DNA of 64,000 nt, taken from positions 8,967,338 to 9,031,337 of the forward strand of contig OZ004581.1 in NCBI GenBank assembly GCA_963924555.1, read 5' to 3'. The notes under the pieces were generated by a model. It did not search any database and was not told the DNA's origin. It was given only the letters and a program-made list of their open reading frames with translations. Positions 1 to 63,365 of this stretch are shown here, in pieces; position 1 is the stretch's first letter; each line of letters begins with the position of its first letter. Position numbers and translations under genes: made by a program. The DNA comes from Crambe crambe. Lineage: Eukaryota; Porifera; Demospongiae; Poecilosclerida; Crambeidae.

Positions 1-3000
1 AATAACTTACTTTCTGAAGGAATGAAATTAAGCATCAAAATACGACAGTGAAGGTACGACAGGATAAGAGAATAGACAGCATGTAAGTCACAATGCAGAG
101 AATGAGTACGTTCAGAATAACTTACATCCTGAAGGAATGAAATTAAGCATCAAAATACGACAGTGAAGGTACGACAGGGTAAGAGTATAGACAGCATATA
201 AGTAACAATGCAGACAGTGAAGGTACGACAGGACAAGAGAATAGACAGCATGTAAGTAACCATGCAGAGAATGAGTACGTTCAGAATAACTTACCACCTG
301 AAGGAATGAAATTAAGCATCAAAATACGACAGTGAAGGTACGACAAGGTAAGAATATAGACAGCATGTAAGTAACAATGCAGAGAGTGAGTACGTTCAGA
401 ATAACTTACCAACTGAAGGAATGAAATTAAAGTATCGAATACGACAGTGAAGGTATGACAGGATAAGAGAATAAACAGCATGTAAGTAACAATGCAGAGA
501 GTGAGTACGTTCAGAATAACTTACCGGCTGAAGGAATGAAATTAAGCATCAAAATACAACAGTGAAGGTACGGCAGGGTAAGAGAATAGACAGCATGTAA
601 GTAACAATGCAGAGAGTGAGTATGTTCAGGATAACTTACATACTGAAAAAATGAAATTAAGCATCAAAATATGACAGTGAAGGTACAACATGGTAAGAGA
701 ATAGACAGCATGTAAGTAACAATGCAGAGAGTGAGTTAGTTAAGAATGACTTACCGTCTGAAGGAGTGAAATTAAGCACCAAAATACGACAGTAAAGTTA
801 TGACAGGGTAAGAGAATAGACAGCATGTAAGTAATAATGCAGACAATGAAGTTACGACAGGGTAAGAGAATAGACAGCATGTAAGTAACAATGCAGAGAG
901 TGAGTCAGTTTTAAATAACTTACTTTCTGAAGGAATGAAATTAAGCATCAAAATACGACAGTGAAGGTACGACAGGATAAGAGAATAGACAGCATGTAAG
1001 TAACAATGCAGAGAGTGAATATGTTCAGAATAACTTACATTCTGAAGAAATGAAATTAAGCATCAAAATATGACAGTGAAGGAACGACAGAGTAAGAGAA
1101 TAGACAGCATGTAAGTAACAATGTAAAGAGTGAGTCAGTTCAGAATAACTTACTCGCTGAAGGAATGAAATTAAAGGATAAGAGAATAGACAGCATGTAA
1201 GTAACAATGCAGAGAGTGAGTACGTTCAGAATAACTTACCGACTGAAGGAATGAAATTAAAGTATCGAATACGACAGTGAAGGTACGACAGGATAAGAGA
1301 ATAGACAGCATGTAAGTAACCATGCAGAGAATGAGTACGTTCAGAATAACTTACATACTGAAAAAATGAAATTAAGCATCAAAATACGACGACAGGGTAA
1401 GAGAATAGACAGCATGTAAGTAACAATGCAGAGAGTGAGTCAGTTCAGAATAACTTACCTCCTGAAGGAATGAAATTAAGCATCAAAATACAATAGTGAA
1501 GGTACGACAGGGTAAGAGAATAGACAGCATGTAAGTAACAATGCAGAGAGTGAGTATGTTCAGAATAACGTACCTCCTGAAGGAATGAAATTAAGCATCA
1601 AAATATAACAGTGAAGGTAAGACAGGGTAAAAGAATAGACAGCATGTAAGTAACAATGCAGAGAGTGAGTACTTTCAGAATATCTTACCTCCTGAAGGAA
1701 TGAAATTAAGCATCAAAATACGACAGTGAAGGTAAGACAGGGTAAGAGAACAGACAGCATGTAAGTAACAATGCAGAGAGTGAGTACGTTCAGAATAACT
1801 TACCTCCTGAAGGAATGAAATTAAACATCAAAATGCGACGACAGGGTAAAAGAATAGACAGCATGTAAGTAACAATGTTGAGAGTGAGTCAGTTCAGGAT
1901 AACTTACCAGCTAAAGGAATGAAATTAAGCATCAAAATATAACAGTGAAGATATAACAGGGTAAGAGAATAGACAGCTTGTAAGTAACAATGCAGAGAGT
2001 GAGTCAGTTCAGGATAACTTACCGGCTAAAGGAATGAAATTAAGCATCAAAATATAACAGTAAAGATATGACAGGGTAAGAGAATAGACAGCTTGTAAGT
2101 AACAATGCAGAGAGTGAGTCAGTTCAGGATAACTTACCGGCTAAAGGAATGAAATTAAGCATCAAAATATAACAGTAAAGATATGACAGGGTAAGAGAAT
2201 AGACAGCATGTAAGTAACAATGCAGAGAGTGAGTACGTTCAGAATAACTTACCTCCTGAAGGAATGAAATTAAGCATCAAAATATAACAGTGAAGGTAAG
2301 ACAGGGTAAAAGAATAGACAGCATGTAAGTAACAATGCAGAGAGTGAGTCTGTACAGAATAACTTACTCGCTGAAGGAATGAAATTAAGCATCAAAATAC
2401 AACGGTGAAGATACGACAGGATAAGAGAATAGACAGCATGTAAGTAACAATGCAGAGAGTGAGTACGTTCAGAATATCTTACTCGCTGAAGGAATGAAAT
2501 TAAGCATCAAAATACAACAGTGAAGATACGACAAGATAAGAGAATAGACAGCATGTAAGTAACAATGCAGAGAGTGAGTACGTTCAGAATATCTTACCTC
2601 CTGAAGGAATGAAATTAAGCATCAAAATACGACAGTGAAGGTAAGACAGGGTAAGAGAATAGACAGCATGTAAGTAACAATGCAGAGAGTGAGTACGTTC
2701 AGAATATCTTACCTCCTGAAGGAATGAAATTAAGCATCAAAATACGACAGTGAAGGTAAGACAGGGTAAGAGTATAGACAGCATGTAAGTAACAATGCAG
2801 AGAGTGAGTACGTTCAGAATAACTTACCAACTGAAGGAATGAAATTAAGCATCAAAATACGACAGTGAAGGTAAGACAGGGTAAGAGAATAGACAGCATG
2901 TAAGTAACAATGCAGAGAGTGAGTACGTTCAGAATAACTTACCAACTGAAGGAATGAAATTAAGCATCAAAATACGACAGTGAAGGTACGGCAGGGTAAG

Positions 3001-6000
3001 AGAATAGACAGCATGTAAGTAACAATGCAGAGAGTGAGTCAGTTCAGAATAACGTACTTGCTGAAGGAATGAAATTAAGCATCAAAATACAACAGTGAAA
3101 GTACGGCAGGGTAAGAGAATAGACAGCATGTAAGTAACAATGCAGAGAGTGAGTCAGTTCAGAATAACTTACTCGCTGAAGGAATGAAATTAAGCATCAA
3201 AATACGACGACAGGGTAAGAGAATAGACAGCATGTAAGTAACAATGCAGAGAGTGAGTACGTTCAGAATAACTTACCTTCTGAAGGAATGAAATTAAGCA
3301 TCAAAATACGACGACAGGGTAAGAGCATGTAAGTAACAATGCAGAGAGTGAGTACGTTCAGAATAACTTACCAACTGAAGGAATGAAATTAAGCGTCAAA
3401 ATACGAGGACATGGTAAGAGAATAAACAGCATGTAAGTAATAATGCAGAGAATGAGTACGTTCAGAATAACTTACTTCCTGAAGGAACATCAAAATACGA
3501 CGACAGGGTAAGAGAATAGACAGCATGTAAGTAACAATGCAGAGAGTGAGTAGGTTCAGAATAACTTACCAACTGAAGGAATGAAATTAAGCATCAAAAT
3601 ACGACAGTGAAGGTACGGCAGGGTAAGAGAATAGACAGCATGTAAGTAACAATGCAGAGAGTGAGTCAGTTCAGAATAACTTACAAACTGAAGGAATGAA
3701 ATTAAGCATCAAAATACAACAGTGAAGGTACGGCAGGGTAAGAGAATAGACAGCATGTAAGTAACAATGCAGAGAGTGAGTCAGTTCAGAATAACTTACT
3801 CGCTGAAGGAATGAAATTAAGCATCAAAATACGACGACAGGGTAAGAGAATAGACAGCATGTAAGTAACAATGCAGAGAGTAAGTACGTTCAGAATAACT
3901 TACCTTCTGAAGGAATGAAATTAAGCATCAAAATACGACGACAGGGTAAGAGCATGTAAGTAACAATGCAGAGAGTGAGTATGTTCATAATAACTTACCT
4001 CCTGAAGGAATGAAATTAAGCATCAAAATACGACAATGAAGGTAAGACAGGGTAAGAGAATAGACAACATGTAAGTAACAATGCAGAGAGTGAGTCAGTT
4101 CAGAATAACTTACTCGCTGAAGGAATGAAATTAAGCATAAAAATACAACGACAGGGTAAGAGAATAAACAGCATGTAAGTAACAATGTAGAGAGTGAGTA
4201 CGTTCAGAATAACTTACCAACTGAAGGAATGAAATTAAGCATCAAAATACGACAGTGAAGGTATGGCAGGGTAAGTAACAATGCTGAGAGTGAGTACGTT
4301 CAGAATAACTTACCTTCTGAAGGAATGAAATTAAGCATCAAAATACGACAACAGGGTAAGAGAATAAACAGCATGTAAGTAACAATGCAGAGATTGAGTA
4401 CGTTCAGAATAACTTACCTCCTGAAGGAATGAAATTAAGCATCAAAATATGACAGTGAAGGTAAGACAGGGTAAGAGAATAGGCAGCATGTAAGTAATAA
4501 TGCAGAGAGTGAGTCAGTTCAGAATAACTTACTCGCTGAAGGAATGAAATTAAGCATCAAAGTACAATGACAGGGTAAGAGAATAGACAGCATGTAAGTA
4601 ACAATGTAGAGAGTGAGTACGTTCAGAATAACTTACCTCCTGAAGGAATGAAATTAAGCATCAAAATATGACAGTGAAGGTAAGACAGGGTAAGAGAATA
4701 GGCAGCATGTAAGTAATAATGCAGAGAGTGAGTCAGTTCAGAATAACTTACTCGCTGAAGGAATGAAATTAAGCATCAAAGTACAATGACAGGGTAAGAG
4801 AATAGACAGCATGTAAGTAACAATGTAGAGAGTGAGTACGTTCAGAATAACTTACCAACTGAAGGAATGAAATTAAGCATCAAAATACGACGACAGGGTA
4901 AGAGCATGTAAGTAACAATGCAGAGAGTGAGTATGTTCATAATAACTTACCTCCTGAAGGAATGAAATTAAGCATCAAAATACGACAATGAAGGTAAGAC
5001 AGGGTAAGAGAATAGACAACATGTAAGTAACAATGCAGAGAGTGAGTCAGTTCAGAATAACTTACTCGCTGAAGGAATGAAATTAAGCATAAAAATACAA
5101 CGACAGGGTAAGAGAATAAACAGCATGTAAGTAACAATGTAGAGAGTGAGTACGTTCAGAATAACTTACCAACTGAAGGAATGAAATTAAGCATCAAAAT
5201 ACGACAGTGAAGGTATGGCAGGGTAAGTAACAATGCTGAGAGTGAGTACGTTCAGAATAACTTACCTTCTGAAGGAATGAAATTAAGCATCAAAATACGA
5301 CAACAGGGTAAGAGAATAAACAGCATGTAAGTAACAATGCAGAGATTGAGTACGTTCAGAATAACTTACCTCCTGAAGGAATGAAATTAAGCATCAAAAT
5401 ATGACAGTGAAGGTAAGACAGGGTAAGAGAATAGGCAGCATGTAAGTAATAATGCAGAGAGTGAGTCAGTTCAGAATAACTTACTCGCTGAAGGAATGAA
5501 ATTAAGCATCAAAATACGACGACAGGGTAAGAGAATAGACAGCATGTAAGTAACAATGCAGAGAGTGAGTACGTTCAGAATAACTTACCAACTGAAGGAA
5601 TGAAATTAAGCATCGAAATACGACGACAGGGTAAGAGAATAGACAGCATGTAAGTAACAATGCAGAGAGTGAGTACATTCAGAATAACTTACCGACTGAA
5701 GGAATGAAATTAAGTATCAAAATACGACAGTGAAGGTAAGACAGGGTAAGAGAATAGACAGCATGTAAGTAACAATGCACAGAGTGAGTACGTTCAGAAT
5801 AACTTACCTCCTGAAGGAATGAAATTAAGCATCAAAATACGACAGTAAAAGTACGGCAGGGTAAGAGAACAGACAGCATGTAAGTAACAAAATGCAGAGA
5901 GTGAGTTTATTCAGAATAACTTACCTGCTGAAGGAATAAATTAAGCATCAGTGACAGTATGATAGGGTAAGAGAATAGACAGCATGTGAGTAACAATGTA

Positions 6001-6520
6001 GATGTGAGTTGGTTCAGAATAACTTACCCCCTGAAGGCATCAAAATACGACAGGGTAAGAGAATAGACAGCATATAAGTAACAATGCAGAGAGTGAGTTT
6101 ATTCAGAATAACTTACCCGCTGAAGGAATGAAATTAAGCATCAAAATACGACAATGAAGGTATGACAGGGTAAGAGAATAGACAGCATGTGAGTAACAAT
6201 GTAGAGTATGAGTTGGTTCAGAATAACTTACCATCTGAAGCATCAAAAACAACAATGAAGGTACGACAGGGTAAGAGAATAAACAGCATGTAAGTAATAG
6301 TGCTGAAAGTTGTCAAGAATAACTCACACCTGAAGGATCTAAATATGTCAATGAAGGTATGACAGGGTAAGATAATGAGAAGTGATAAAACAATATGTTA
6401 ATGAAGTATAAGTAATAACTTACCAGGAGAAGGGGTAATAAGTTCCAACATCAAATTGAGTGTGTATGGTGTGAAAGAACATGATGCCAAATATAATGTC
6501 AGTCTTGAATGACTCACCTC
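1..6520 (-). repeat. Array A: tandem ~115-bp units, each with a candidate single-codon microexon
   Basis: Sixty units are visible and the array runs off the left edge. On the minus strand each unit reads branch-like CTTAAT, pyrimidine tract, TTCAG, three variable bases, GTAAGT. Unit spacing is 115 or about 104 bp. Lowest base and minus-strand triplet: 11 AAA, 126 GAT, 295 GTG, 410 TTG, 525 CCG, 640 TAT, 755 ACG, 924 AAA, 1039 AAT, 1154 CGA, 1240 TCG, 1355 TAT, 1459 GAG, 1574 GAG, 1689 GAG, 1804 GAG, 1908 CTG, 2023 CCG, 2138 CCG, 2253 GAG, 2368 CGA, 2483 CGA, 2598 GAG, 2713 GAG, 2828 TTG, 2943 TTG, 3058 CAA, 3173 CGA, 3277 AAG, 3372 TTG, 3476 GAA, 3570 TTG, 3685 TTT, 3800 CGA, 3904 AAG, 3999 GAG, 4114 CGA, 4218 TTG, 4314 AAG, 4418 GAG, 4533 CGA, 4637 GAG, 4752 CGA, 4856 TTG, 4951 GAG, 5066 CGA, 5170 TTG, 5266 AAG, 5370 GAG, 5485 CGA, 5589 TTG, 5693 TCG, 5808 GAG, 5925 CAG, 6028 GGG, 6117 CGG, 6232 ATG, 6328 (only two bases, GT), 6424 (no AG acceptor), 6518 GAG. 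Donors at 1574 and 3058 are GTACG. The repeat structure is certain; that the triplets are spliced exons is inference. Confidence 0.85.
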
Positions 6521-6855: not shown

Positions 6856-6930
6856 AAAATATGGTTCAGCTCTGCTAGAAGTAGCCTTCTTCTCTGCTTC
6901 TTCATTCTCTTCACCTTTTTTATCACTCAT
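6856..6930 (-). CDS. First coding exon of gene A (MSDKKGEE...AEPYF)
   Basis: A 75-nt exon starting at ATG (6930-6928) and ending TAT TTT before donor GTGAGT, so 25 codons ending in phase 0. The peptide begins MSDKKGEENEEAEKK, is Lys/Glu-rich and hydrophilic, and ends SSRAEPYF. Near-identical exons of the same length and frame precede arrays B and C; residue 12 is Ala here and Thr in B and C. Conservation of frame, length and donor in three copies is the evidence that it is coding. The next candidate exon is GAG at 6518, across an intron of about 335 nt. The ROC-COR part of this gene would lie left of the window. Confidence 0.75.
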
Positions 6931-15432: not shown

Positions 15433-16526
15433 TCATATATCTTCCACCTCCTTCTCCCAAATATCAGTACAACCTACCACACTGTACTTTTGTTCGATAC
15501 TAGATGCAATATCTTTGCGATCGACAAAAGGATCTCTGAGGGCTGTGCAGAGACTGTTCCAAGATGGTGGCTGACTTCCCTTCATCTTCAGCCACTGTTT
15601 GATGAGTTCTCTCATGCATCCATTGATGTTATTGGGGTTGTCAACTTCTATCTTCTCAACTTCAGCATCTGATAGTCCTAGGACGACTCCAAGGTCCTCC
15701 CATTCCTTCACTATGTCAATCAATGCTGTCCTCACATTGCGATAGGCTGCATGCAGGCAAACACCCAATGGCATGACTCACAGCTATGTTGCTAGGTAGC
15801 TCACTGAGTATAACTATACATGTGCATGAGATATACTATCCACTCACTCAAGGTGTCATCTTTAACTTGACTTGCTTCAACTGATTTTCTTGTTGGTTCA
15901 CTCTATAGACATACACAATGGAGGTTGTCTTTAAATCATAGAAGATGATGTTCTTTAACTTACATCAGGAGCACTGCTTGTTCCTAGTGGTTGAGGTTTG
16001 CTGGTCAAAGTTGTGGACTGAGTAGGTGCTGGACTGCAACCAGGTTGAAGTTGAGGTGCACTTTGCAACTGGTTCAATGCTGAGATGGAAACATAATATT
16101 AATAACTACCAGCAGTGACAGGTCAGGGAATTTGTGAATACACACCATTAGAGGTAACAAACCAGGTGGGTCTTTCACTTCTGTCCTCTGAGATAGTTTG
16201 GCAGCTATCTATCTACAGTATCTAGTCACAACCCACCCACACCATGTAACACTGGATGGGGCCCCCACTTCAGCTAGCTAGCATCTTTTACAAACATTTT
16301 TGAACACAATGGTAGCTACCCTCAGTCATCATGTTATAGCTCTGGGCCACGATATAAAATATTGTGACTAGACCTATAAAATTCATTATTCATTGTACTA
16401 GTAACCTAATATTATTCACCCTAACACACACTCTGATCCAATGATTACCTGTATGAGCAAATTGTGAGGATTGATGGTGTCTATTAGACTCTGTCAAAGG
16501 TTGTTCGTCTATTAAAGATCGTTTGC
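15433..16526 (-). CDS. Gene B 3' part: linkers and terminal Death domain
   Basis: Four exons join in frame: 16526-16449 (KRSLIDEQPLTESNRHHQ, phase 1 at both ends), 16079-15964 (ALNQLQSAPQLQPGC, Pro/Gln/Thr-rich), 15902-15848 (SEPTRKSVEASQVKDD) and 15746-15433 with TGA stop. The last encodes a Death-domain fold: hydrophobic heptads, LGLSDAEVEKIE, then LIKQWLKMKGSQPPSW, a Trp and the closing DIASSIEQKY. Such domains recruit partners by homotypic contact in apoptotic or immune signalling. No further exon lies before the gene F promoter, so this is the C-terminus. Confidence 0.7.
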
Positions 16527-19142: not shown

Positions 19143-19207
19143 CTGAAAAAACAACAATAACGACAACAACATTAATTAACACCCACTTATCGTAGTTAGC
19201 TACTCAC

Positions 19208-21213
19208 CTGTCGAATACTCAACCAGAAGTTTTGGTCAATATTTAATTTTATCCGAACACTTTTTTCACAAACTAGTGTAGGATTAGAAATGGTGGCATC
19301 CTCTGGAAGGATGATGAAATGATCTCTCTGTGGACAACCTTCACACTTCAATGCAAAATTGATGCCAATCCCTGGCAGCCATTTCTTGATTTCTGTGAAT
19401 GACTGTTGAATGATTTCAAGTATGGCATGACATGAACTTATGAAGGTGGGACATTTATATTTCCTTGAGTCAATACGTTGTACGTCAATTCTCACACTAA
19501 ACTTTTCCTCTGTAATGAAAAGTCTGTCCAGTTGCTGTCCAGGAGATCCAAACAAGAATTGGATTTGATTTTGATACATTTTCTTATCAACTGGTAGATG
19601 ACATTTAGGATGCTTTGACATGACTGCTGCCAGTTGAGTGAAGAAGCCTGGAGGCAAGTAGTTGGTGCTGAAAACAAGATGCAATGGAATTGCAGAGTTG
19701 ATGGCAGTGCTAGTTGAGTGTGGATCATCAACTTTCGGTAAATGAGGTAACATGGATGGAACAAAATACTTCAAACCAGGACCTTTATGCTTTTCAGTAC
19801 TGATTTTAGCAATAATCAAAAAATGCTCCAATAGATCCACAATCTGTTGAGGTTCCAACTTTTTTTGAGCTCTCAATACTTTTTGGTATAATGATTCTAC
19901 CAGTATTCCATCCTTACGCAGCAATTTCCAGAGACGACTGTTTCTATATTCTTCTCGCCCTTCCAGTGCCAACAAACGGGCTATTTGTTTGACAAGCCAT
20001 TGAGGGTCAGCAATGACACAAGATTTCAAGCTGGGGATGTCAGAGTAGTGAAAGAACACGGCAAGATCGTGATAAAATGTGAGAATGCTAGTAAGAGTAT
20101 CTTCAGGGATTAGACATGCTCTACATAATTCCTTCACTTCCTCTAAAGGAACTACTGGCTTCTTTTGAGATCTGGTATATCTCTGGAACACTTTCCTGAA
20201 CAGCAACCAAGTGATTGGAGTACGAATAGCTAAATCTTCAGTTGCAAAGTCACTGACAATCGTACGAATGAACTTAAAAGTGTCATCTTCAAGCTCTCCC
20301 ATACCAGCTGTTGTGTTATCGACTATTGCTCCATCCAGAACAATGTCAGAAAAGGCTTTACCTGTTAATTCTGAAGAAAGCTTTTCAAGAATCTCATGTT
20401 TTCTTTCCTTAACAGAAACATCGTCACCATGTGAACCAACAGGCAGAACGAGAGGATACTTGGGGACTTCTTCATCTTCATCACTTTCTTTATCTATAAT
20501 GAGCCTCTTATTCGAGAGAGTAGCATGAATGGTGGATATCCACTGCACCATCAAGTCAAGTGTGGATATATCTTCTAGATGCTCAGTGGCTCTTCCTTTA
20601 AAATAGGTAAGACACTGATACTGATCATGGAGATCACACCTGGCATCAAACATTAAGAGAAACAATGTCCTCGCAGTTAGAAAAGCAGGAAGAATTTTAA
20701 GAAAGACTGGCTGGCCTCCACAATCCCACACATGCAGATAAACTTCCTCTCTGATAAATGGGTCACCAGTGGTTATAACAGAAAGAATCTCTTTCAAAAT
20801 CCCCTCAATTAATGGGTGGTCAAACTTGGGGGCAGTTTTACTAGGTTGAATCTCACCACTGCTCACATCACTTTCACTGCTTGTATCACTTCCACTGTTC
20901 GCATCACTTCCTGTGGCAGAATTGGAATCTTTGTAGTCAAGAATAGTTTGTATCAACTGAGCAAGTCCTTTGATTTCATCAGCATCAGTTATTTTTGTCC
21001 AGAATTTTCCTTCCTGGCTGCAGGCCCAGTAACTCTCAGTGGGGCGGAGGGAGAACGTGTCAGCAACCTGGGTGCTGTAGGCTTCACAGGGAAGGGGCAG
21101 ATTCATCAAGCCATTGAGTAAACTGCTCTTGCCCACACCTCCAGGACCAACGATCATCACACGAGCATATGCAACCTTCGTTTCACCATGCCCCAGGGCA
21201 TTCAGGTAATCCA
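19208..21213 (-). CDS. Gene B ROC-COR GTPase exon
   Basis: A single 2006-nt exon entered in phase 1 and left in phase 0 (SIRQ, GTGAGT). Ras-of-complex features: P-loop GPGGVGKSS near residue 23-31, G3-like VWDCGGQPVF near 165, G4-like PVGSHGDD near 255. COR-like features follow: TPITWLLFRKVFQRY, the DLAVFFHYSD segment, ADPQWLVKQIARLL, and a C-terminal LKCEGCP motif. ROC and COR occur together in ROCO proteins, GTP-controlled scaffolds. A Ser/Asp-rich insert (GSDTSSESDVSSG) lies between P-loop and G3 and is shorter in gene C. The first true residue is encoded across the intron (G plus TG), so the apparent start in this exon is not a start codon. Confidence 0.9.
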
Positions 21214-21265
21214 CTGAAAATCAAAAGTACAAAATAATTAATATCTATCAAAATAAAAATATTAC

Positions 21266-21287
21266 CTTCAGTCCTTGAGGCTCGAAT
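21266..21287 (-). CDS. Gene B 22-nt exon joining the array to ROC
   Basis: Acceptor TTTTTTATTGAG, then codons for IRASRTE and one extra G, donor GTAATA. Entered in phase 0 and left in phase 1, it supplies the G that completes GTG at the ROC exon (V DYLNALG). The gene C copy (53705-53726) has the same length, phase and sequence except for one residue (TRASRTE). This exon fixes the frame of the array: the upstream triplets must be whole codons. Confidence 0.75.
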
Positions 21288-21374: not shown

Positions 21375-24300
21375 CACCTGAAAATATGAACACCACAACA
21401 GTGAAAGTATTATGAGATTAAGTGTGAGCAAACACAGGGAGAAAGCTGACTCTCAGGTCATGACTCAATGTACGTGTTATGATTAACAATGCATTAATTT
21501 TGGTAGACAACATGTAAGCAACAATGCAGAGAGTGAGTCAGTTCAGGATAACTTACTGACTGAAGGATGAAATTAATACGACGACAGCATGAGAGAATAG
21601 ACAGCATGTAAAGGTAAGAGAATAGACAGCATGTAAGTAACCATGCAGAGAGTGAGTACATTCAGAATAACTTACTGGCTGAAGGATGACAATGAAGGTA
21701 CGACAGGGTAAGAGAATAGACAGCATGTAAGTAACTATGCAGATAGTGAGTATGTCTAGAATAACTTACCATCTGAAGGAATGAAATTAAGCATCAAAAT
21801 ACGACAATGAAGGTATGACAGGGTAAGAGAATAGACAGCATGTAAGTGACAATGCAGGGAGTGAGTCAGTTCAGAATAACTCACCAACTGAAGGAATGAA
21901 ATTAAGCATCAGTGAAGGTACGACAGGGTAAGAGAATAGACAGCATGTAAGGGTAAGAGAATAGACAGCGTGTAGGTAACAATGCAGAGAGTGAGTCAGT
22001 TCAGAATAACTTACTCCCTGAAGGAATGAAATTAATCAAAATATGACGACAGCATAAGAGAATAGACAGCATGTAAGGGTAAGAGAATAGACAGCATGTA
22101 AGTAACCATGCAGAGAGTGAGTACGTTTAGAATAACTTACATCCTGAAGGAATAAAATTAAGCATCAAAATACGACAGTGAAGGTACGACAGGGTAAGAG
22201 AATGGACAGCATTGCAGAGAGTGAGTCAGTTCAAAATAACTTACTATCTGAAGGAATAAAATAAAGCATCAAAATACAACAGTGAAGGTACGACAGGGTA
22301 AGAGAATGGACAGCATGTAAGTAACAATGCAGAGAGTGAGTCAGTTTAAAATAACTTACCAACTGAAGGAATAAAATTAAGCATCAAAATACAACAGTGA
22401 AGGTACGACAGGGTAAGAGAATAGACAGCATGCAAGTAACAATGCAGAGAATGAGTCAGTTCAGAATAACTTACATCCTGAAGGAATGAAATTAAGCATC
22501 AAAATACGACGACAGGGTAAGAGAATAGACAGCATGTAAGTAACAATGCAGAGAGTGAGTCTGTACAGAATAACTTACTCGCTGAATGAATGAAATTAAG
22601 CATCAAAATACGACAATGAAGGTACGACAGGGTAAGAGAATAGACAGCATGTAAGTAACAATGCAGAGAGTGAGTATGTTCAGAATAACTTACCTCCTGA
22701 AGGAATGAAATTAAGCATCAAAATACGACAGTGAAGGTAAGACAGGGTAAGAGAATAGACAGCATGTAAGTAACAATGCAGAGAGTGAGTACGTTCAGAA
22801 TAACTTACCTCCTGAAGGAATGAAATTAAGCATCAAAATACGACAGTGAAGGTAAGACAGGGTAAGAGAATAGACAGCATGTAAGTAACAATGCAGAGAG
22901 TGAGTGCGTTCAGAATAACTTACCAACTGAAGGAATGAAATTAAGCATCAAAATACGACAGTGAGGGTAAGACAGGGTAAGAGAATAGACAGCATGTAAG
23001 TAACAATGCAGAGAGTGAGTACGTTCAGAATAACTTACCTTCTAAAGGAATGAAATTAAGCATCAAAATACGACAGTGAAGGTAAGACAGGGTAAGAGAA
23101 TAGACAGCATGTAAGTAACAATGCAGAGAGTGAGTGCGTTCAGAATAACTTACCAACTGAAGGAATGAAATTAAGCATCAAAATACGACAGTGAGGGTAA
23201 GACAGGGTAAGAGAATAGACAGCATGTAAGTAACAATGCAGAAAGTGAGTACATTCAGAATAACTTACCTCCTGAAGGAATGAAATTAAGCATCAAAATA
23301 CAACAGTGAAGGTACGGCAGGGTAAGAGAATAGACAGCATGTAAGTAACAATGCAGAGAGTGAGTTAGTTCAGAATAACTTACTCGCTGAAGGAATGAAA
23401 TTAAGCATCAAAATGCGACAACAGGGTAAGAGAATAGACAGCATGTAAGTAACAATGCAGAGAGTGAGTGCGTTCAGAATAACTTACCAACTGAAGGAAT
23501 GAAATTAAGCATCAAAATATGACAGTGAAGGTAAGACAGGGTAAGAGAATAGACAGCATGTAAGTAACAATGAAGAGAGTGAGTACATTCAGAATGACTT
23601 ACTCTCTGAAAGAATAAAGTTAAGCATCGAAATACGACAGTGAAGGTAAGACAGGGTAAGAGAATAGACAGCATGTAAGTAACAATGCAGAAAGTGAGTA
23701 CATTCAGAATAACTTACCTCCTGAAGGAATGAAATTAAGCATCAAAATACAACAGTGAAGGTACGGCAGGGTAAGAGAATAGACAGCATGTAAGTAACGA
23801 TGCAGAGAGTGAGTTAGTTCAGAATAACTTACTCGCTGAAGGAATGAAATTAAGCATCAAAATACGACAACAGGGTAAGAGAATAGACAGCATGTAAGTA
23901 ACAATGCAGAGAGTGAGTGCGTTCAGAATAACTTACCAACTGAAGGAATGAAATTAAGCATCAAAATACGACAGTGAAGGTAAGACAGGGTAAGAGAATA
24001 GACAGCATGTAAGTAACAATGAAGAGAGTGAGTACATTCAGAATAACTTACTCTCTGAAAGAATAAAGTTAAGCATCGAAATACGACAGTGAAGGTAAGA
24101 CAGGGTAAGAGGATAGACAGCATGTAAGTAACAATGCAGAAAGTGAGTACATTCAGAATAACTTACCTCCTGAAGGAATGAAATTAAGCATCAAAATACA
24201 ACAGTAAAGGTACGGCAGGGTAAGAGAATAGACAGCATGTAAGTAACAATGCAGAGAGTGAGTACATTCAGAATAACTTACTCTCTGAAAGAATAAAGTT

Positions 24301-27300
24301 AAGCATTGAAATACGACAGTGAAGGTAAGACAGGGTAAGAGAATAGAAAGCATGTAAGTAACAATGCAGAGAGTGAGTACGTTCAGAATAACTTACCTTC
24401 AGAAGGAATGAAATTAAGCATCAAAATACGACGACAGGGTAAGAGAATAGCCAGCATGTAAGTAACAATGCAGAGAGTGAGTACGTTCAGAATAACTTAC
24501 CGACTGAAAGAATGAAATTAAGCATCAAAATACGACAGTGAAGGTACAACAGGGTAAGAGAATAGAACAGCATGTAAGTAACCATGCAGAGAGTGAGTAC
24601 GTTCAGAATAACTTACCTCCTGAAGGAATGAAATTAAGCATCAAAATACGACGACAGGGTAAGAGAATAGACAGCATGTAAGTAACAATGCAGAGAGTGA
24701 GTACGTTCAGAATAACTTACCTCCTGAAGGAATGAAATTAAGCATCAAAATACGACAGTGAAGGTACGACAGGGTAAGAGAATAGAACAGCATGTAAGTA
24801 ACAATGCAGACAATAAGTCAGTTCAGAATAACTTACAGTCTGAAGGAATGAAATTAAACATCAAAATACAACATTGAAGGTACGACAGGGTAAGGGAATA
24901 GACAGCATGTAATTAACTATGCAGAGAGTGAGAAACTTACCGACTGAACAAATGAAATCAAGCATCAAAATACGACAGTGAAAGTAAGACAGGGTAGGAG
25001 AATAGACAGCATGTAAGTAACGATGAAGAGAGTGAGTACATTCAGAATAACTTACCCCCTGAAGGAATGAAATTAAGCATCAAAATACGACAGTGAAGGT
25101 ATGACAGGGTAAGAAAATAGACAGCATGTAAGTAACAATGCAGAGAGTGAATCAGTTCAGAATAACTTACAAACTGAAGGAATCATCAAAATACGACAGT
25201 GAAGGTATGACAGGGTAAGAGAATAGACAGCATGTAAGTAACAATGCAGAGAGTGAGTACGTTCAGAATAACTTACGATCTGAAGGAATGAAATCAAGCA
25301 TCAAAATATGATAGTGAAGGTATGACAGGGTAAGAGAATAGACAGCATGTAAGTAACAATGAAGAGAGTGAGTCTGTACAAAATAACTTACGAACTGAAG
25401 GAATGAAATTAAGCATCAAAATAATATGATAGTGAAGGAACGACAGGGTAAGAGTATAGACAGCATGTAAGTAACAATGCAGAAAGTGAGTCCGTACAGA
25501 ATAACTTACTGTCTGAAGGAATAAAATTAAGCATCGAAATACGACAGTGAAGGTACGACAGGGTAAGAAAATAGACAGCATGTAAGTAACAATGCAGAGA
25601 GTGAGTACGTTCAGAATAACTTACAATCTGAAGGAATGAAATTAAGCAAATATGACAGTGAAGGTATGACAGGGTAAGAGAATAGACAGCATGTAAGTAA
25701 CAATGCAGAGAGTGAGTACATTCAGAATAACTTACATTCTGAAAGAAAAAATGAAGCATCGAAATACGACAGGGAAGGTATGACAGGGTAAGAGTATAGA
25801 CAGCATGTAAGTAACAATGCAGAGAGTGAGTCTGTACAGAATAACTTACTTTCTGAAGGAATAAAATTAAGCATCGAAATACAACAGTGAAGGTAAGACA
25901 GGGTAAGAGAATAGACAGCATGTAAGTAACAATGCAGAGAGTGAGTATGTTCAGAATAACTTACCGACTGAAGGAATGAAATTAAGCATTAAAATACGAC
26001 AGTGAAAGTATGACAAAGAATAAACAGCATGTAAGTAACAATGCAGAGAGTGAGTCAGTTCAGGATAACTTACCGGCTAAAGGAATGAAATTAAGCATCA
26101 AAATATGACAGTGAAGGTAAGACAGGGTAAGAGAATAGACAGCATGTAAGAAACAATGCAGAGAGTGAGTACGTTCAGAATAACTTACAGCCTGAAGGAA
26201 TGAAATTAAGCATCAAAATACGACAGTGAAGGTAAGACAGGGTAAGAGAATAGACAACATGTAAGTAACAATTCAGAGAGTGAGTACGTTCAGAATAACT
26301 TACAGCCTGAAGGAATGAAATTAAGCATCAAAATACGACAGTGAAGGTAAGACAGGGTAAGAGAATAGACAACATGTAAGTAACAATGAAAAGAGTGAGT
26401 ACATTCAAAATAACTTACTTTCTAAAAGAATAAAATTAAGCATCGAAATAGGGTAAGAGAATAGACAGCATGTAAGTAACAATGCAGAGAGTGAGTACGT
26501 TCAGAATAACTTACTTCCTGAAGGAATGAAATTAAGCATCAAAATACGACGACAGAGTAAGAGAATAGACAGCATGTAAGTAACAATGCAGAGAGTGAGT
26601 ACGTTCAGAATAACTTACTAACTGAAGGAACTAAATTAAACATCAAAATACGACAGTGAAGGTAAGACAGGGTAAGAGAATAGACAGCATATAAGTAACA
26701 ATGTAGAGAGTGAGTCAGTTCAGAATAACTTACTCGCTGAAGGAATGAAATTAAGCATCAAAATACAACAGTGAAGGTACGGCAGGGTAAGAGAATAGAC
26801 AGCTTGTAAGTAACAATGCAGAGAGTGAGTCAGTTCAGGATAACTTACCTTCTAAAGGAATGAAATTAAGCATCAAAATACGACAGTGAAGGTAAGACAG
26901 GGTAAGAGAATAGACAGTATATAAGTAACAATGCAGAGAGTGAGTACATTCAGAATAACTTACCAACTGAAGGAATGATCAAAATACGACAGTGAAGGTA
27001 CGGCAGGGTAAGAGAATAGACAGCATGTAAGTAACATTGCAGAGAGTGAGTCAGTTTAGAATAACTTACCTCCTGAAGGAATGAAATTAAGCATCAAAAT
27101 ACAACAGTAAAGGTACGGTAGGGTAAGAGAATAGACAGCATGTAAGTAACAATGCAGAGAGTGAGTACGTTCAGAATAACTCACCTCCTGAAGGAATGAA
27201 ATTAAGCATCAAAATACGACGACAGGGTAAGAGAATAGACAGCATGTAAGTAACAATGCAGAGAGTGAGTACGTTCAGAATAACTTACCTCCTGAAGGAA

Positions 27301-27794
27301 TGAAATTGAGAATCAAAATATGACGACAGGGTAAGAGAATAGACAGCATGTAAGTAACAATGCAGAGAGTGAGTATAACTTACAAACTGAAGGAATGAAA
27401 TTAAGCATCAAAATACGACGACAGGGTAAGAGAATAGACAGCATGTAAGTAACAATACAGAGAGTGAGTCAGTTCAGAATAACTTACTCGCTGAAGGAAT
27501 GAAATTAAGCATCAAAATACGACAGTGAAGGTATGACAGGGTAAGAGAATAGACAGCATGTAAGTAATAGTGCTGAAAGTTGTCAAGAATAACTCACATC
27601 CTGAAGGATCTAAATATGTCAATGAAGGTATGACAGGGTAAGATAATGAGAAGTGATAAAACAATATGTTAATGAAGTATAAGTAATGACTTACCAGGAG
27701 AAGGGGTAATAAGTTCAAACATCAAATTGAGTGTGTATGGTGTGAAAGAACATGATGCCAAATATAATAATGTCAGTCTTGAATGACTCACCTC
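21375..27794 (-). repeat. Array B: 58 units with candidate single-codon microexons
   Basis: Same unit as array A. Lowest base and minus-strand triplet: 21375 GTG, 21557 TCA, 21676 CCA, 21770 ATG, 21885 TTG, 22015 GGA, 22141 GAT, 22245 ATA, 22360 TTG, 22475 GAT, 22579 CGA, 22694 GAG, 22809 GAG, 22924 TTG, 23039 AAG, 23154 TTG, 23269 GAG, 23384 CGA, 23488 TTG, 23603 AGA, 23718 GAG, 23833 CGA, 23937 TTG, 24052 AGA, 24167 GAG, 24282 AGA, 24397 AAG (acceptor mutated to CTG), 24501 TCG, 24617 GAG, 24721 GAG, 24837 ACT, 24941 TCG, 25056 GGG, 25171 TTT, 25277 ATC, 25392 TTC, 25510 ACA, 25625 ATT, 25736 AAT, 25850 AAA, 25965 TCG, 26074 CCG, 26189 GCT, 26304 GCT, 26419 AAA, 26515 GAA, 26619 TTA, 26734 CGA, 26849 AAG, 26964 TTG, 27070 GAG, 27185 GAG, 27289 GAG, 27384 TTT, 27488 CGA, 27598 GAT, 27695 (no AG acceptor), 27792 GAG. 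Several donors are GTGAGT (21375, 21885, 27185, 27598, 27792). It lies between the first coding exon and the 22-nt exon of gene B, both in phase 0. Confidence 0.85.
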
Positions 27795-28147: not shown

Positions 28148-28222
28148 AAAATATGGTTCAGCTCTGCTAGAAGTAGCCTTCTTCTCTGTCTCTTCATTCT
28201 CTTCACCTTTTTTATCACTCAT
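28148..28222 (-). CDS. First coding exon of gene B
   Basis: ATG at 28222, 25 codons starting MSDKKGEENEETEKK and ending AEPYF, donor GTGAGT, phase 0. Same length and frame as in genes A and C. It encodes a charged, probably disordered N-terminus. If all parts join, gene B would encode about 1,220 residues: 25 from this exon, up to 56 from the array, then ROC-COR, coil and two Death-like domains. Just upstream (28249-28257) is a pyrimidine tract ending CAG directly followed by GTAAG, which could be a 5'-UTR splice site. Confidence 0.75.
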
Positions 28223-40782: not shown

Positions 40783-40955
40783 AAAACAAAGAAAAAATGA
40801 TGAACCTTGTGGAGTGTGTGCTTCTTTTGAAATAGGAAGGGTGGATGCTGAGGTGAATTGCAGCAATACTTATTTAAAAGGTGATACCATAAAACTACAC
40901 ATCTATACATGATTCAAAACACCATTGCAATTAAGTTACAAAAATCTAAGTTTAC
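40170..40955. other. Intron of gene H with a (GA)n microsatellite
   Basis: A GGGA run followed by about 50 bp of GA dinucleotides lies at 40712-40780. Apparent Ser/Leu or Arg/Glu repeat peptides here are reading-frame artefacts of the microsatellite. The rest is AT-rich intron sequence shared with the other cassette introns. Confidence 0.75.
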
Positions 40956-41831
40956 CTTCATACTTTCCATGGATGGAACATTTCTCAGCATTGAGAGCTG
41001 TTTCTAGATCTGCTGCCAATTCTTCCTGTCGGCCATCTTTCAACAAGTTGTATAAGCCCCTCCATTTCTCTGAGTAGCGTTTGCAGTGGGGCATTTGGGG
41101 AGCATTGGCCAGCCATTCTCCAATCACATCTCGTAAGCAATCAACATCTGACCCTTGCTTCGCTATGGACTTGATGCGATAAGGTGGGATGCCAACAAGC
41201 TCAGCTATCTTCTTCCAGTAGGGAGCCAAGTCATCCAGGATTCTGATTTCTCTGTGCTTGCCAGTTTCACGGTCAAAGTACTTGATCAGTTGTAAGCTTT
41301 CAATGGTTGCATCTTCATCCCAAAGAGGACTTGTACCAACTGTTGTAAAGATAATAACCACATGTTCACATTATACTGTAGTGGATTATAATCATGACTG
41401 CATGGCTACATATATATATACCTTGCTTGCTAACTTATACTACTAAATCCATGCACACTAACAATACTAGGGGCCCCAGCTTTCTGGGTATATAATATTT
41501 AGCATCCCATAAAATATACCTTGTTTGCTAACTTACATACTAACCACACTAACAATACTAACACTGGATGGGGCCCCCACTTTCTGGCACCCCAGGTTTT
41601 GAAAACCAATATTTTTGAGCAGAATGGTAGCTACCCTCAGTCATCATGTTATAGCTCAAAAGTGGATTAGGAGGCGATATAAATATTGTGACTAGACCTA
41701 TAAAATTCATTATTCATTGTGCTAATATTATTCACCCTAACACACGCTCTGACCTGTATGAGCAAATTGTGAGGATTGATGGTGTCTATTAGACTCTGTC
41801 AAAGGCTGTTCGTCTATTAAAGATCGTTTGC
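40956..41831 (-). CDS. Gene H: linker and second Death domain
   Basis: Exon 41831-41754 (KRSLIDEQPLTESNRHH; donor GTCAGA is non-ideal) joins exon 41339-40956 in phase 1. The 384-nt exon reads VGTSPLWDEDATIES, LDDLAPYWKKIAELVG, IPPYRIKSIAKQ, VIGEWLANAPQ and WRGLYNLLKDGRQEELA: a canonical Death-domain helix pattern (W...LA..LG, I..I, W....L...L). It differs from the other Death-like cassettes, so the gene carries at least two Death-fold types. Confidence 0.65.
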
Positions 41832-42534
41832 CTATCAGAGAATACCAAGATCATGTGACAATTAGTATACTGTAGGCACAGGAAAAATTTTGGGATCAAC
41901 TAAGCTATAATTATTTGAAAAAATAATTCCAATTTCTGTTCCAAGCAGAATTGATATACTCTCTATGCATAAATAAACATTGATCAATTTATAAAATAAA
42001 GGAAGAATAGAATTAGTTAACGGGCATATCATGCTACGAAAATAGTTGGGGAGATGGTTCATATTGCAAAAATTCATCTGGTGACATAAAATTAATGGTC
42101 CCTCAAGGACCGCAATTTGAGGGTCCCTCCTTGCCAGGGGGCAATTTTTATAAAATGAACACAAAATTAAATCAGAGTTCTCCCTAAAGGGTGGTAGAGT
42201 GGTGCAGCACCGCTCTGATGGGTCCCATTTTTGTTTCATGTGGTTAAAAGAATGTATTTTAATTGCCACAAGAACGTCAAAATCCTTTAATGTGGTGTTC
42301 AAGCACCGCTCTAATCAATTTTTCTGGGGAGAACCCTGTAAATAATAAAGTCCATAATCACTTGATCCCTCTGAGGTGGTAAAACATGCAAGTATGAATT
42401 TCTTGCTTGTATGAATATACAGTGATGTGGGTGTCACACTGTGGTGGTAGACCATTGATGATTGTCCAATTATCATTCCATGAGCAGATAAACAGCTGCT
42501 AGATCAAGACTAGTGGTCTAATTGTATAACTCAC

Positions 42535-51694: not shown

Positions 51695-53652
51695 TTGTCG
51701 AATACTCAACCAAAAGTTTTGATCAATACTTAATTTTATCCGAACACTTTTTTCACAAACTAGTGCAGGATTAGAAATGGTGGCATCCTCTGGAAGGATG
51801 ACGAAATGATCTCTATGTGGACAACCTTCACACTTTAATGCAAAATTGATGCCGATCCCAGGCAGCCATTTCTTGATTTTCATGAAAGACTGTTGAATGA
51901 TTTCAAGTATGGCATGACATGAACTTATGAAGGTGGGACATTTATATGTCCTTGAATCGATACGTTGTACATCAATTCTCACACTAAATTTTTCTTCTGT
52001 AATAAAAAGTCGGTCCAGTTGCTGTCCAGGAGATCCAAACAAGAATTGGATTTGATTTCGATATATTTTCTTATCGACTGGTAGATGACATTTAGGGTGC
52101 TTTGACATGACTGCTGCCAGTTGAGTGAAGAAGCCTGGAGGTAAGTAGTTGGTGCTGAAAACAAGATGCAATGGAATTGCAAACTTGATGGCAGTGCTAG
52201 TCGAGTGTGGATCAGCAACGTTCGGTAAATGAGGTAGCATGGATGGAACAAAATATTTCAAACCTGGACCCCTGTATTTTTCAATACTGATTTTAGCAAT
52301 GATCAAGAAATGCTCCAATATATCCACAATCTGTTGAGGTTGCAACTCTTTTTGAGCTCTCAATACTTTTTGGTATAATGATTCTACCAATACTCCATCC
52401 TCGCGCAACAACTTCCAGAGACGGCTGTTTCTATATTCTTCTCGGCCTTCCAGTGCCAACAAACGGGCTATTTGCTTGATGAGCCATTGAGGGTCAGCAA
52501 TGACACAAGACTCCAAGCTGGGGATGTCTGAGTAGTGAAAGAACACAGCAAGATCGTGATAGAATGTAAGGATGCTAGTAAGAGTATCTTCAGGGATAAA
52601 ACATCCTCTGCATAGTTCCTTCACTTCCTCTAAAGAAACTACTGGCTTCTTTTGAGATCTGGCATATCTCTGAAACACTTTCCTGAACAGCAACCAAGTG
52701 ATTGGAGTACGAATAGCTAAATCTTCTGTTGCAAAGTTACTCACAGTTTCACGAATGAGCTTAAAAGTGGGATCTTCTTTCATCTCTCCTTTACCAGCTG
52801 TCGTGTTATCGACTATTGCTCCATCCAAAACAATATCAGAAAAAACTTTATCTGCAATTTCTGAAGAAAGCTTTTCAAGAATCTCGTGTTTCCTTTCCTT
52901 AACAGAAATATCATCACCATGTGAACCAACTGGCAGAATGCGAGGATATTTGGGGACTTCTTCATCTTCTACAATTTCTTTATCGATAATGAGCCTAGCA
53001 TGAATGGTGGATATCCACTGCACCATCAGGTCCAGTGTGGATATATCTTCTAGATGCTCAGTGGCTCTTCCTTTCAAATACGTGAGTGACCGACACTGAT
53101 CGTGGAGATCACATCTGGCATCGAACATTAAGAGAAACAATGTCCTCGCTGTTAAGAATGCAGGAAGAATTTTAAGAAAAACTGGCTGGCCTCCACAATC
53201 CCACACATGCAGATAAACTTCCTCTTCAATAAATGGGTGATCAGTGGTTATAACAGAAAGAATCTCTTTCAAAATCCCCTCAATCAATGGGTGGTCAAAT
53301 TTGGGGGCAGTTTTACTAGGTTGATTTTTGTCACTGCTCACATCACTTCCTGTGGCAGAAATGGAATCTTTGTGGTCAAGAATAGTTTGTATCAACTGAG
53401 CAAGTCCTTTGATTTCATCAGCATCAGTTATTTTAGTCCAGAACTTTCCTTCCTGGCTGCAGGCCCAGTAACTCTCAGTGGGGCGGAGGGAGAACGTGTC
53501 AGCCACCTGGGTGCTGTAGGCTTCACAGGGAAGGGGCAGATTCATCAAGCCATTGAGTAGACTGCTCTTGCCCACACCTCCAGGACCAACGATCATCACA
53601 CGAGCATATGCAACCTTCGTTTCACCATGCCCCAGGGCATTCAGGTAATCCA
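51695..53652 (-). CDS. Gene C ROC-COR GTPase exon
   Basis: 1958 nt; ortholog-like copy of gene B 19208-21213 with the same phases. P-loop GPGGVGKSS, VWDCGGQPVF, PVGSHGDD and ADPQWLIKQIARLL are intact, as is LKCEGCPHRDHF. It is 48 nt shorter, having lost part of the Ser/Asp-rich insert after the P-loop and three codons near ARLIIDKE, always in multiples of three. The donor after RQ is GTGAGT; read-through would add a hydrophobic tail. Confidence 0.9.
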
Positions 53653-53704
53653 CTGAAAATCAAACTTACAAAATAATTAATATCTATCAAAATAAAAATA
53701 TTAC

Positions 53705-53811: not shown

Positions 53812-56383
53812 CACCTGAAAATATGAACACCACAACAGTGAAAGTATTGTACAGAGAGAAAGCTGACTCTCAGGTCATGACTCAATGTATGTGTTATTAT
53901 TAACAACGCATTAATTCTGGTAGACAGCATGTAAGTAACAATGCAGAGAGTGAGTCAGTTCAGAATAACTTACCAACTGAAGGAATGAAATTAAGCATCA
54001 AAGTACAAGAGTGAAGGTACGACAGGGTAAGAGAATAGACAGCATGTAAGTAACAATGCAGAGAGTGAGTACGTTCAGAATAACTTACCTCCTGAAGGAA
54101 TGAAATTAAGCATCAAAAGACGACAGTGAAGGTATGGCATGATAAGAAAATAGACAGCAATGTAAGTAACCATGCAGAGAGTGAGTCAGTTCAGAATAAC
54201 TTACCAACTGAAGGAATCATCAAAATACGACAGTGAAGGTACGACAGGATAAGAGAATAGACAGCATGTAAGTTATAATGCAGAGTGAGTCAGTTCAGTA
54301 TAACTTACCGACTGAAGGAATGAAATTAAGCATCAAAATACGACAGTGAAGGTACAACAGGGTAAGAGAATAGACAGCATGTAAGTAACCATGCAGAGAG
54401 TGAGTACGTTCAGAATAACTTACCAACTGAAGGAATGAAATTAAGCATCAAAATACGACAGTGATGGTACAACAGGGTAAGAGAATAGACAGCATGTAAG
54501 TAACTATGCAGAGAGTGAGTACGTTCAGAATAACTTACCGACTGAAGGAATGAAATTAAAGCATCGAATACGACAGTGAAGGTACAACAGGGTAAGAAAA
54601 TAGACAGCATGTAAGTAACCATGCAGAGAGTGAGTACATTCAGAATAACTTACCGACTGAAGAAATCATCAAAATATGTCAGTGAAGGTACGACAGAGTA
54701 AGAGAATAGACAGCATGCACGTAACAATGCAGAGAGTGAGTCAGTTCAGAATAACTTACCCCCTGAAGGAATGAAATTAAGCATCAAAATACGTACAACA
54801 GGGTAAGAGAATAGACAGCATGTAAGTAACCATGCAGAGAGTGAGTACGTTCAGATTAACTTACCAACTGAAGGAATGAAATTAAGCATCAAAATACGAC
54901 AGTGAAGGTACAACAGGGTAAGAGAATAGACAGCATGTAAGTAACCATGCAGAGAGTGAGTATGTTAAGAATAACTTACCGACTGAAGAAATCATCAAAA
55001 TACGTCAGTGAAGGTACGACAGAGTAAGAGAATAGACAGCATGTAAGTAACAATGTAAAGAGTGAGCCAGTTCAGAATAACTTACTGGCTGAAAGAATGA
55101 AATTAAGCATCAAAATACGACAGTGAAGGTACAACAGGGTAAGAGAATAGACAGCATGTAAGTAACCATGCAGAGAGTGAGTACGTTCAGAATAACTTAC
55201 CAACTGAAGGAATGAAATTAAAGCATCGAATACGACAGTGAAGGTACAACAGGGTAAGAAAATAGACAGCATGTAAGTAACCATGCAGAGAGTGAGTACG
55301 TTCAGAATAACTTACCAACTGAAGGAATGAAATTAAGCATCAAAATACGACAATGATGGTACAACAGGGTAAGAGAATAGACAGCATGTAACAAAGTCAG
55401 TTCAGAATAACCTACCTCCTGAAGGAATGAAATTAAGCATCAAAATACGATAGTGAAGGTACAACAGGGTAAGAGAATAGACAGCATGTAAGTAACCATG
55501 CAGAGAGTGAGTACGTTCAGAATAACTTACCGACTGAAGGAATGAAATTAAAGCATCGAATACGACAGTGAAGGTACAACAGGGTAAGAAAATAGACAGC
55601 ATGTAAGTAACCATGCAGAGAGTGAGTACGTTCAGAATAACGTACCGACTGAAGGAATGAAATTAAAGCATCGAATACGACAGTGAAGGTACAACAGGGT
55701 AAGAAAATAGACAGCATGTAAGTAACCATGCAGAGAGTGAGTACGTTCAGAATAACTTACCGACTGAAGAAATCATCAAAATACGTCAGTGAAGGTATGA
55801 CAGAGTAAGAGGATAGACAGCATGTAAGTAACAATGTAAAGAATGAGTACGTACAGAATAACTTACCAACTGAAGGAATGAAATTAAGCATCAAAATACG
55901 ACAGTGAAGGTACGACAGGGTAAGAGAATAGACAGCATGTAAGTAACAATGCAGAGAGTGAGTTTATTCAGAATAACTTACCCGCTGAAGGAATGAAATT
56001 AAGCATCAAAATACGACAATGAAGGTATGACAGGGTAAGAGAATAGACAGCATGTGAGTAACAATGTAGAGTGTGAGTTGGTTCAGAATAACTTACCATC
56101 TGAAGCATCAAAATACAACAATGAAGGTACGACAGGGTAAGAGAATAGACAGCATATAAGTAATAGTGCTGAAAGTTGTCAAGAATAACTCACATCCTGA
56201 AGGATCTAAATATGTCAATGAAGGTATGACAGGGTAAGATAATGAGAATGGTTAAAACAATATGTTTATAAGTAATGACTTACCAGGAGAAGGGGTAATA
56301 AGTTCCAACGTCAAATTGAGTGTGTATGGTGTGAAAGAACATGATGCCAAATATAATAATGTCGGTCTTGAATGACTCACCTC
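53812..56383 (-). repeat. Array C: 24 units with candidate single-codon microexons
   Basis: Lowest base and minus-strand triplet: 53812 GTG, 53974 TTG, 54089 GAG, 54205 TTG, 54309 TCG, 54424 TTG, 54539 TCG, 54654 TCG, 54760 GGG, 54865 TTG, 54980 TCG, 55086 CCA, 55201 TTG, 55316 TTG, 55416 GAG (donor GTAGG), 55531 TCG, 55646 TCG (donor GTACG), 55761 TCG, 55867 TTG, 55982 CGG, 56097 ATG, 56194 GAT, 56284 (no AG acceptor), 56381 GAG. Shorter and less varied than A and B, dominated by Leu and Ser codons. Terminal units GAG, degenerate, GAT at the 5' side and GTG at the 3' side match array B exactly; ATG and CGG match array A. Confidence 0.85.
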
Positions 56384-56686: not shown

Positions 56687-56761
56687 AAAATATGGTTCAG
56701 CTCTGCTAGAAGTAGCCTTCTTCTCTGTCTCTTCATTCTCTTCACCTTTTTTATCACTCAT
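56687..56761 (-). CDS. First coding exon of gene C
   Basis: ATG at 56761, 25 codons starting MSDKKGEENEETEKK and ending AEPYF, donor GTGAGT in phase 0; peptide identical to gene B. The intron to the first triplet (56381) is about 300 nt. Confidence 0.75.
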
Positions 56762-63346: not shown

Positions 63347-63365
63347 GAATCTCTCAGCAAGGCCA

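Follow-up and report, generated by a model that had tools for sequence, protein, structure and literature searches.

Tandem arrays of predicted single-codon exons in a ROC-COR gene family of the sponge Crambe crambe

Can a segment of a protein be written one codon at a time, with each codon standing as an exon of its own between complete introns? The question is raised by a 64,000-nucleotide stretch of the genome of the sponge Crambe crambe (C1:8967338-9031337, hereafter the window), which carries three tandem arrays (A, B and C) of ~115-bp units, all on the minus strand, and in which the array of gene B lies between an N-terminal exon and an exon encoding ROC and COR domains (Table 1). From the window and from a scan of the 143 Mb genome (119 contigs) we regard it as highly probable that the array triplets are spliced and translated as in-frame exons of one codon each. 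Unit anatomy, triplet spacing, stop avoidance, hypervariability of the triplets, block duplication and paralogue divergence, all of them observed directly in the DNA, are the elements on which this reading is built.

In array B exactly three bases separate the splice signals in 56 of the 58 units, just as an earlier note on this DNA had claimed, and the coordinates given there proved to be exact; a strict scan recovers 55 of these units, and the V unit, which is visible by inspection of the sequence, brings the count to 56. Read on the minus strand, each unit consists of a branch-point-like CTTAAT, a pyrimidine tract, CAG, the three bases and then the consensus GTAAGTTATTCTGAAC, the donor motif of array B being GTAAGT and the intron taking up ~112 nt per unit. 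On checking, all 56 triplets are sense codons and the order of the residues is that given in the earlier note. Phase 0 is maintained on both sides of the array, by the preceding exon, the units and the following exon, and the joined product of gene B is predicted to read AEPYF-EDRFEEELKRLEK...GLMPSV-IRASRTEV. The first unit is followed by a gap in each of the nine arrays that were read at their start.

The spacing was analyzed with a generic pattern (YYNYAG-N(k)-GTRAGT, k = 1–12) applied to both strands. On the gene strand of the three window arrays k is 3 in 127 matches and 2 in one, the other ten values being absent, and the opposite strand of the arrays yields two matches, both with k = 3. 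Outside the arrays there are three matches at k = 3 and two at k = 9 on the gene strand, and one at k = 3 and three at k = 7–8 on the other. The same spacing of three recurs among the units with a recognizable acceptor in five stretches (R1 468/479, R2 186/189, P1 71/71, P2 75/75 and C11 54/54), in a scan that spanned the whole stretches and not only their arrays and in which 31 further units had weak acceptors. That the fixed spacing is a mere by-product of uniform repeats is contradicted by the intron lengths of array B, 24 of 52 of which depart from the modal length and which fall into 15 distinct lengths.

Variability is concentrated in the same three bases: for the 431 introns that measure exactly 112 nt, the diversity at the successive triplet positions is 0.737, 0.724 and 0.570 as opposed to an intron mean of 0.099 (median 0.046), and only 2 of the 112 intron positions exceed 0.55. 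In mid-intron (positions 20–85), where most positions were not used in picking the units, the diversity is 0.085.

Stop codons are almost absent from the triplets. Among 2,837 units that match a 19-place unit pattern exactly across the genome, TAA and TAG do not occur and TGA occurs once, whereas TAT and TGG, one-base neighbours of stops, are found 91 and 68 times, respectively; the antisense stops TTA and TCA amount to 97 (CTA not being counted). Column shuffles of 871 units of the C1-type arrays give an expectation of 120 stops, with a minimum of 97 in 2,000 shuffles, against 2 apparent stops, both of which are a register artefact in which AG-CCA-GTAAGT had been misread as AG-TAA-GT. Two “TAA” units at array ends, and two in P1/P2 that emerged with loose thresholds, were rejected as register artefacts. 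The triplets of a noncoding satellite should be free of constraint specific to strand and frame; the stop counts reveal such a constraint, to which the share of synonymous changes, being at random level, adds nothing. Taken together, stop avoidance, fixed spacing and triplet-confined hypervariability lend strong support, in gene B and far beyond it, to the premise of the earlier note that dozens of consecutive in-frame one-codon exons connect the N-terminal exon to ROC-COR.

A number of observations weigh against this reading or restrict what it may claim. The shuffle expectation ignores the kinship among units, and an estimate based on nearest neighbours puts the expected stops at between 1.2 (29 distinct one-step pairs) and 5.9 (100 pairs), with none observed; in the first array of contig C11 the expectation is 0.75, so that this array says little on stop avoidance. 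Furthermore, splicing alone might disfavor stops, since TAA and TGA would give rise to an overlapping donor and TAG to an additional acceptor, although the TAT and TGG counts indicate that splice-site disturbance is not the whole cause of their scarcity. The only real stop unit found is the TGA near C1:8828830, in an array that reads WPQC-TGA-QCRLPLQWQCCLKCCCF; it may be a Cys or Trp codon altered by mutation, a sign of early decay or a TGA that is recoded. In array A the second unit (window position 6327, C1:8973664) has two bases between acceptor and donor, at a place that encodes D in other arrays. Its use would shift the frame; this unit may be left out during splicing, or the frame of gene A may be shifted.

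As to the residues themselves, 26 of 100 one-base nearest-neighbour codon pairs are synonymous versus 27 expected at random, so that no selection on particular residues, in either direction, is evident. Within young blocks, compared as 16 independent pairs, differences affect 7 of 351 codon sites as against 56 of 12,726 intron sites, the changed codons being nonsynonymous in 4 of 4 cases; codons of these blocks change at least as fast as introns. What the data show is stop avoidance and codon diversity, not retention of particular residues. The charged helix and beta-like core that the earlier note had suggested for the peptide found no support, in that hydrophobic periodicity at 3.4–3.7 residues is above shuffles in 0 of 12 arrays (P 0.12–0.94; one 13-unit array was left out as too short) and other arrays are of different composition. 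Coiled-coil or helical order was dropped on the same result, and an apparent avoidance of cysteine (0 of 871 units) was rejected after a Cys/Trp-rich array had been found.

Protein searches likewise gave no sign of the arrays. Array residues are absent from the 16 entries read among the matches to a 757-residue model (120 listed of 605) and from all 12 matches to a 190-residue N-terminal query, and one entry (P0089; 1,027 residues, 41%) combines within a single frame an N-terminal part, ROC-COR and Death, with no recognizable array. The database entries mostly look like single genomic, unspliced frames, however, and the silence of the database on the arrays therefore means little.

How would such an array be expressed? 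Splicing and translation, and their sequential order within the array, are what we infer from the sequence, each ~115-bp unit amounting to one complete intron plus a single-codon exon. An exon of 3 nt is too small for binding at both ends simultaneously, and sequential intron-defined splicing would thus be the simplest route: the spliceosome would most likely remove the ~112-nt introns in succession by intron definition, every step adding one codon and exposing the next GTAAGT. The product would be a segment of 56 residues that links the 25-residue N-terminus to the ROC-COR and probably the Death domains. Because the introns are in phase 0, the gain, loss or skipping of a unit would keep the frame, and frame-neutral units would allow the arrays to evolve like satellite DNA, through block duplication and unit loss, with a paralogue-specific peptide as the outcome between conserved domains. 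That the family is clustered and brings ROC-COR together with Death domains suggests that the segment may act as a sensor or adaptor and be under diversifying pressure; such a role, within an expanded, immune-like family of Death-domain signalling proteins, is conceivable, with the chances somewhat below even. Still more tentative is the suggestion that the satellite serves as a protein-writing device, with one residue per repeat unit, in which germline repeat dynamics (block duplication and unit loss) and stochastic skipping of units in each transcript jointly diversify a receptor-like segment of a large family of Death-domain GTPases; were this the case, receptors would be diversified without recombinases or mutually exclusive exons.

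The way in which arrays grow can be read from the units. Colinear blocks of 6–31 units whose introns differ by <2% are repeated both inside single arrays and from one array to another (21/193 blocks), and it is because units duplicate in such blocks that amino-acid words reappear, among them GSTEES, RERLRE, LSENLIP, PREQHSLL and APSKNITF. Unit pairs that differ at 3–9 of 100 flank bases have 0.56–0.66 codon differences per site, and the upstream codon still differs in 25 of the 192 pairs whose 112-nt introns are identical, in 18 of these 25 by 2–3 bases. Either recombination decouples the codon from the intron, with selection for diverse codons, or the intron was inserted between pre-existing codons.

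The family is large and clustered. The 37 loci at which exon 1 occurs all lie on the contig of the window, C1 (39 rows in the search, two loci being split in two each), 35 of them within 8.16–9.37 Mb and two, on the opposite strand, at 6.64 and 6.71 Mb; in 31 of the 37 it is full length with 89–100% identity. At least 23 close copies of ROC-COR (84–100% identity) are present on C1, a lower bound from the scoring of 66 of 452 candidates. Array length ranges from 22 to at least 175 units and the array peptides diverge strongly, only modules being common between paralogues. The peptides include EEKKKEEKK repeats, SSLFESSR repeats and EPDLPDLPDSDDRSILDEF; compositions range over Ser-rich, Asp/Pro-rich and Cys/Trp-rich, the last found at C1:8826401-8833400 (PCWQCWQLFWPQC) in the array that carries the TGA unit. 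A copy at 6.6 Mb shares exon 1 and the beginning of the array, which is rich in Glu, Arg, Lys and Leu.

As a separate observation, the ROC-COR copy at C1:8304576-8306582, 0.68 Mb away from gene B, has a 100% identical protein; its array, of which 9 kb was read without reaching the start, encodes a largely different peptide that shares the modules APSKNITFI and GSTEES.

Arrays also occur in an outgroup cluster on contig C11 (7.15–7.17 Mb), where ROC-COR has 40–47% identity in near-full-length matches. Both loci read there contain arrays, Asp/Tyr/Ser-rich or Gly/Ala/Tyr-rich, and their codons mostly end in T (49 of 55 in the first array), whereas those of C1 mostly end in G or A. A homologue on contig C20 (C20:3823494-3830493) has ordinary exons and no array; just upstream of ROC, at positions 6131 and 6235 of this locus, CCT and TGG are isolated candidates for 3-nt exons, both flanked by good splice sites and by introns that are unrelated, which indicates that the one-codon exon may predate the arrays. 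For a distant ROCO gene on contig C3 the 3-nt pattern was not found in the 5 kb upstream, and a single scan each of viral and prokaryote contigs revealed no relative, which is what one would expect if the family is eukaryotic. Two-unit array fragments occur elsewhere, one (TTG, TTG) at ~C6:1097865-1097980, at an apparent donor of another gene and, judged by eye, bordered on both sides by GGTGC in an insertion-like manner, the other at C10:3199192-3199307.

Could these data be accounted for otherwise? That the array is nothing but a long noncoding intronic repeat, in which concerted evolution has kept splice-like decoy motifs similar, would agree with its being a tandem repeat, with the two-unit fragments on C6 and C10, with the random level of synonymous changes and with the phase-0 compatibility of exon 1 and the IRASRTEV exon, by which skipping of the whole array keeps the frame; yet it leaves unexplained why hypervariability is confined to the triplet, why the spacing is fixed at three and why the 2,837 units have a single stop in the face of their TAT and TGG counts, and we consider it very improbable. 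The random proportions of synonymous and nonsynonymous changes, together with the unslowed codon changes of the young blocks and the wide drift in composition among paralogues, would also be compatible with a kinetic device, i.e., a chain of introns that mainly delays or limits mRNA production, the peptide being a tolerated, little-constrained linker. Delay alone, however, would not need triplet exons, and the spread of array length among the paralogues also speaks against it, which makes this explanation quite unlikely.

On the other hand, the triplets may be coding and differ from the favored reading in their origin or in their use. An introner-like element inserted serially between the successive codons of what was once an uninterrupted exon could explain why codons differ so much between units whose flanks are still nearly alike, why identical introns can follow different codons and why the C6 fragment sits at an apparent donor between two GGTGC; but block duplication is directly visible, recombination between units can itself separate a codon from its intron, and the lone candidates of the C20 homologue, with their unrelated introns, fit growth from a seed unit, so that such an origin appears unlikely. 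As for use, the triplets could be cassette exons of which a subset enters each mRNA or cell, giving a combinatorial isoform generator with Dscam-like self/non-self tags. Isoform diversity is possible, in that it would follow from the frame neutrality of the phase-0 units; small skipping rates over 56 to at least 175 successive splicing steps would mix the products, and array B holds intact alongside defective units. The near-identical, strong splice signals of the units (which were picked partly for these) nevertheless offer no visible code for selecting a subset, docking elements not having been looked for, and such a generator is in our opinion rather doubtful.

As to precedents, no array of one-codon exons was found described in the literature searched (open-licence articles of PubMed Central, by titles and the beginnings of abstracts, among the matches listed). 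The closest known kind are the micro-exon genes (MEGs) of flatworms (Schistosoma and tapeworms), defined by at least seven exons, half of them micro-exons of <70 nt divisible by three, in runs of four (PMC7653826). The 56 predicted 3-nt exons of array B fall within this size and form a run of 56, and gene B, judged by its predicted exons, very likely counts as a MEG under the definition given there. Accordingly, the statement of the earlier note that it knew of no described family of this sort would apply only to the uninterrupted, one-codon form with homologous introns, since flatworm MEGs possess frame-neutral runs of micro-exons (PMC7653826). MEGs are described as having exons of 3–81 bp, introns of up to 5 kb and secreted products (PMC10526429), whereas here 22 to at least 175 one-codon units are consecutive, the introns are ~112 nt long and mutually homologous as tandem copies, and the host is a ROC-COR protein.

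Recursive splicing in Drosophila (Ubx, kuz, Bx) resembles the proposed mechanism in that an acceptor lies beside a donor and the junction presents a 5′ splice site; it differs in that ratchet points leave zero bases, the cryptic exon is skipped and long introns are subdivided (PMC8605326), whereas here one codon would be added per step and the introns are short. An AG directly before GT, as in a zero-nucleotide ratchet point, is not what the arrays have, the interval being three bases in 127 of 128 array pairs. Exons as small as 1 nt are spliced in plants (APC11, VPS55), as documented by RNA-seq and RT-PCR; these ultra-short micro-exons are single exons and not arrays of homologous units (PMC8831610). 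The fungal gene lipS of Dactylellina haptotyla has two 3-nt exons (PMC5639578), differing from the array genes in being limited to two, mentioned in passing and, in the passage concerned, without stated tandem homology.

Introners, too, are many near-identical introns per genome, dispersed over genes, whereas the array introns are tandem, belong to one gene family and recur every 3 coding bases.

Should the favored reading be correct, exon size would fall to the single codon across a whole protein segment in dozens of genes, and a new genomic way of building and rapidly reshaping a protein would be at hand, in which the evolution of a tandem repeat converts directly into in-frame protein change. 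Ideas on exon recognition would be challenged by a spliceosome that reads at least 175 consecutive 3-nt exons, and the segment would be a candidate for hypervariable recognition in an apparent sponge innate-immune family. As one-codon segments would be hard for standard aligners and gene finders to detect, others may hide in sequenced genomes.

The coordinates of the arrays and of the exons that accompany them are collected in Table 1.

Table 1. Arrays, predicted exons and domain-encoding frames in the window
Feature	Window position	Strand	Particulars
Gene B, coding exon 1	28148..28222	(-)	MSDKKGEENEETEKKATSSRAEPYF; phase-0 end at GTGAGT donor; identical 75-mer at C1:8995485-8995559
Array B	21375..27794	(-)	58 units of ~115 bp, 56 with intact 3-nt exons; 56 residues predicted
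Array B, first single-codon exon	27792..27794	(-)	GAG, E
Array B, defective unit	27695..27700	(-)	donor intact, no AG acceptor
Array B, defective unit	24397..24402	(-)	codon AAG, acceptor CTG for CAG, donor intact (C1:8991733)
Array B, last single-codon exon	21375..21377	(-)	GTG, V
Gene B, 22-nt post-array exon	21266..21287	(-)	IRASRTE plus one base
Gene B, ROC-COR exon	19208..21213	(-)	VDYLNALGHGE...SIRQ; PF16095 COR-A E 2.3e-16; PF08477 Roc E 3.2e-9
Death-domain open frame	15433..15777	(-)	PF00531 E 1.1e-7
Gene A, exon 1	6856..6930	(-)	C1:8974193-8974267, 97%
Array A	1..6520	(-)	58 units in the window; extends ~2.1 kb past the left edge
Gene C, exon 1	56687..56761	(-)	C1:9024024-9024098, 100%; identical to gene B exon 1
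Array C	53976..56383	(-)	22 units
Gene C, ROC-COR exon	51695..53653	(-)	C1:9019032-9020990, 92%

Gene B belongs to the ROCO family, in which ROC is followed by COR, since both PF08477 and PF16095 are above cut-off in the 19196-21220 frame. The Death-domain frame is probably a downstream exon of this gene. A second, different ROCO gene lies at 45580-47928, with Roc and COR-A both below cut-off; upstream of it no array was found, the pattern giving one isolated CCA match. Near this gene the frames 40936-41370 and 42518-42913 look Death-like by eye and have no Pfam match. The rest of the window includes a 32-bp minisatellite of 15 copies (9915-10396) in which more than one plus-strand frame is open (NPLGTSLYPLSIPSEPP repeats) and, at the right edge, a frame for an integrase core (rve_3, 63032-63421) that is probably the remnant of a retroelement.

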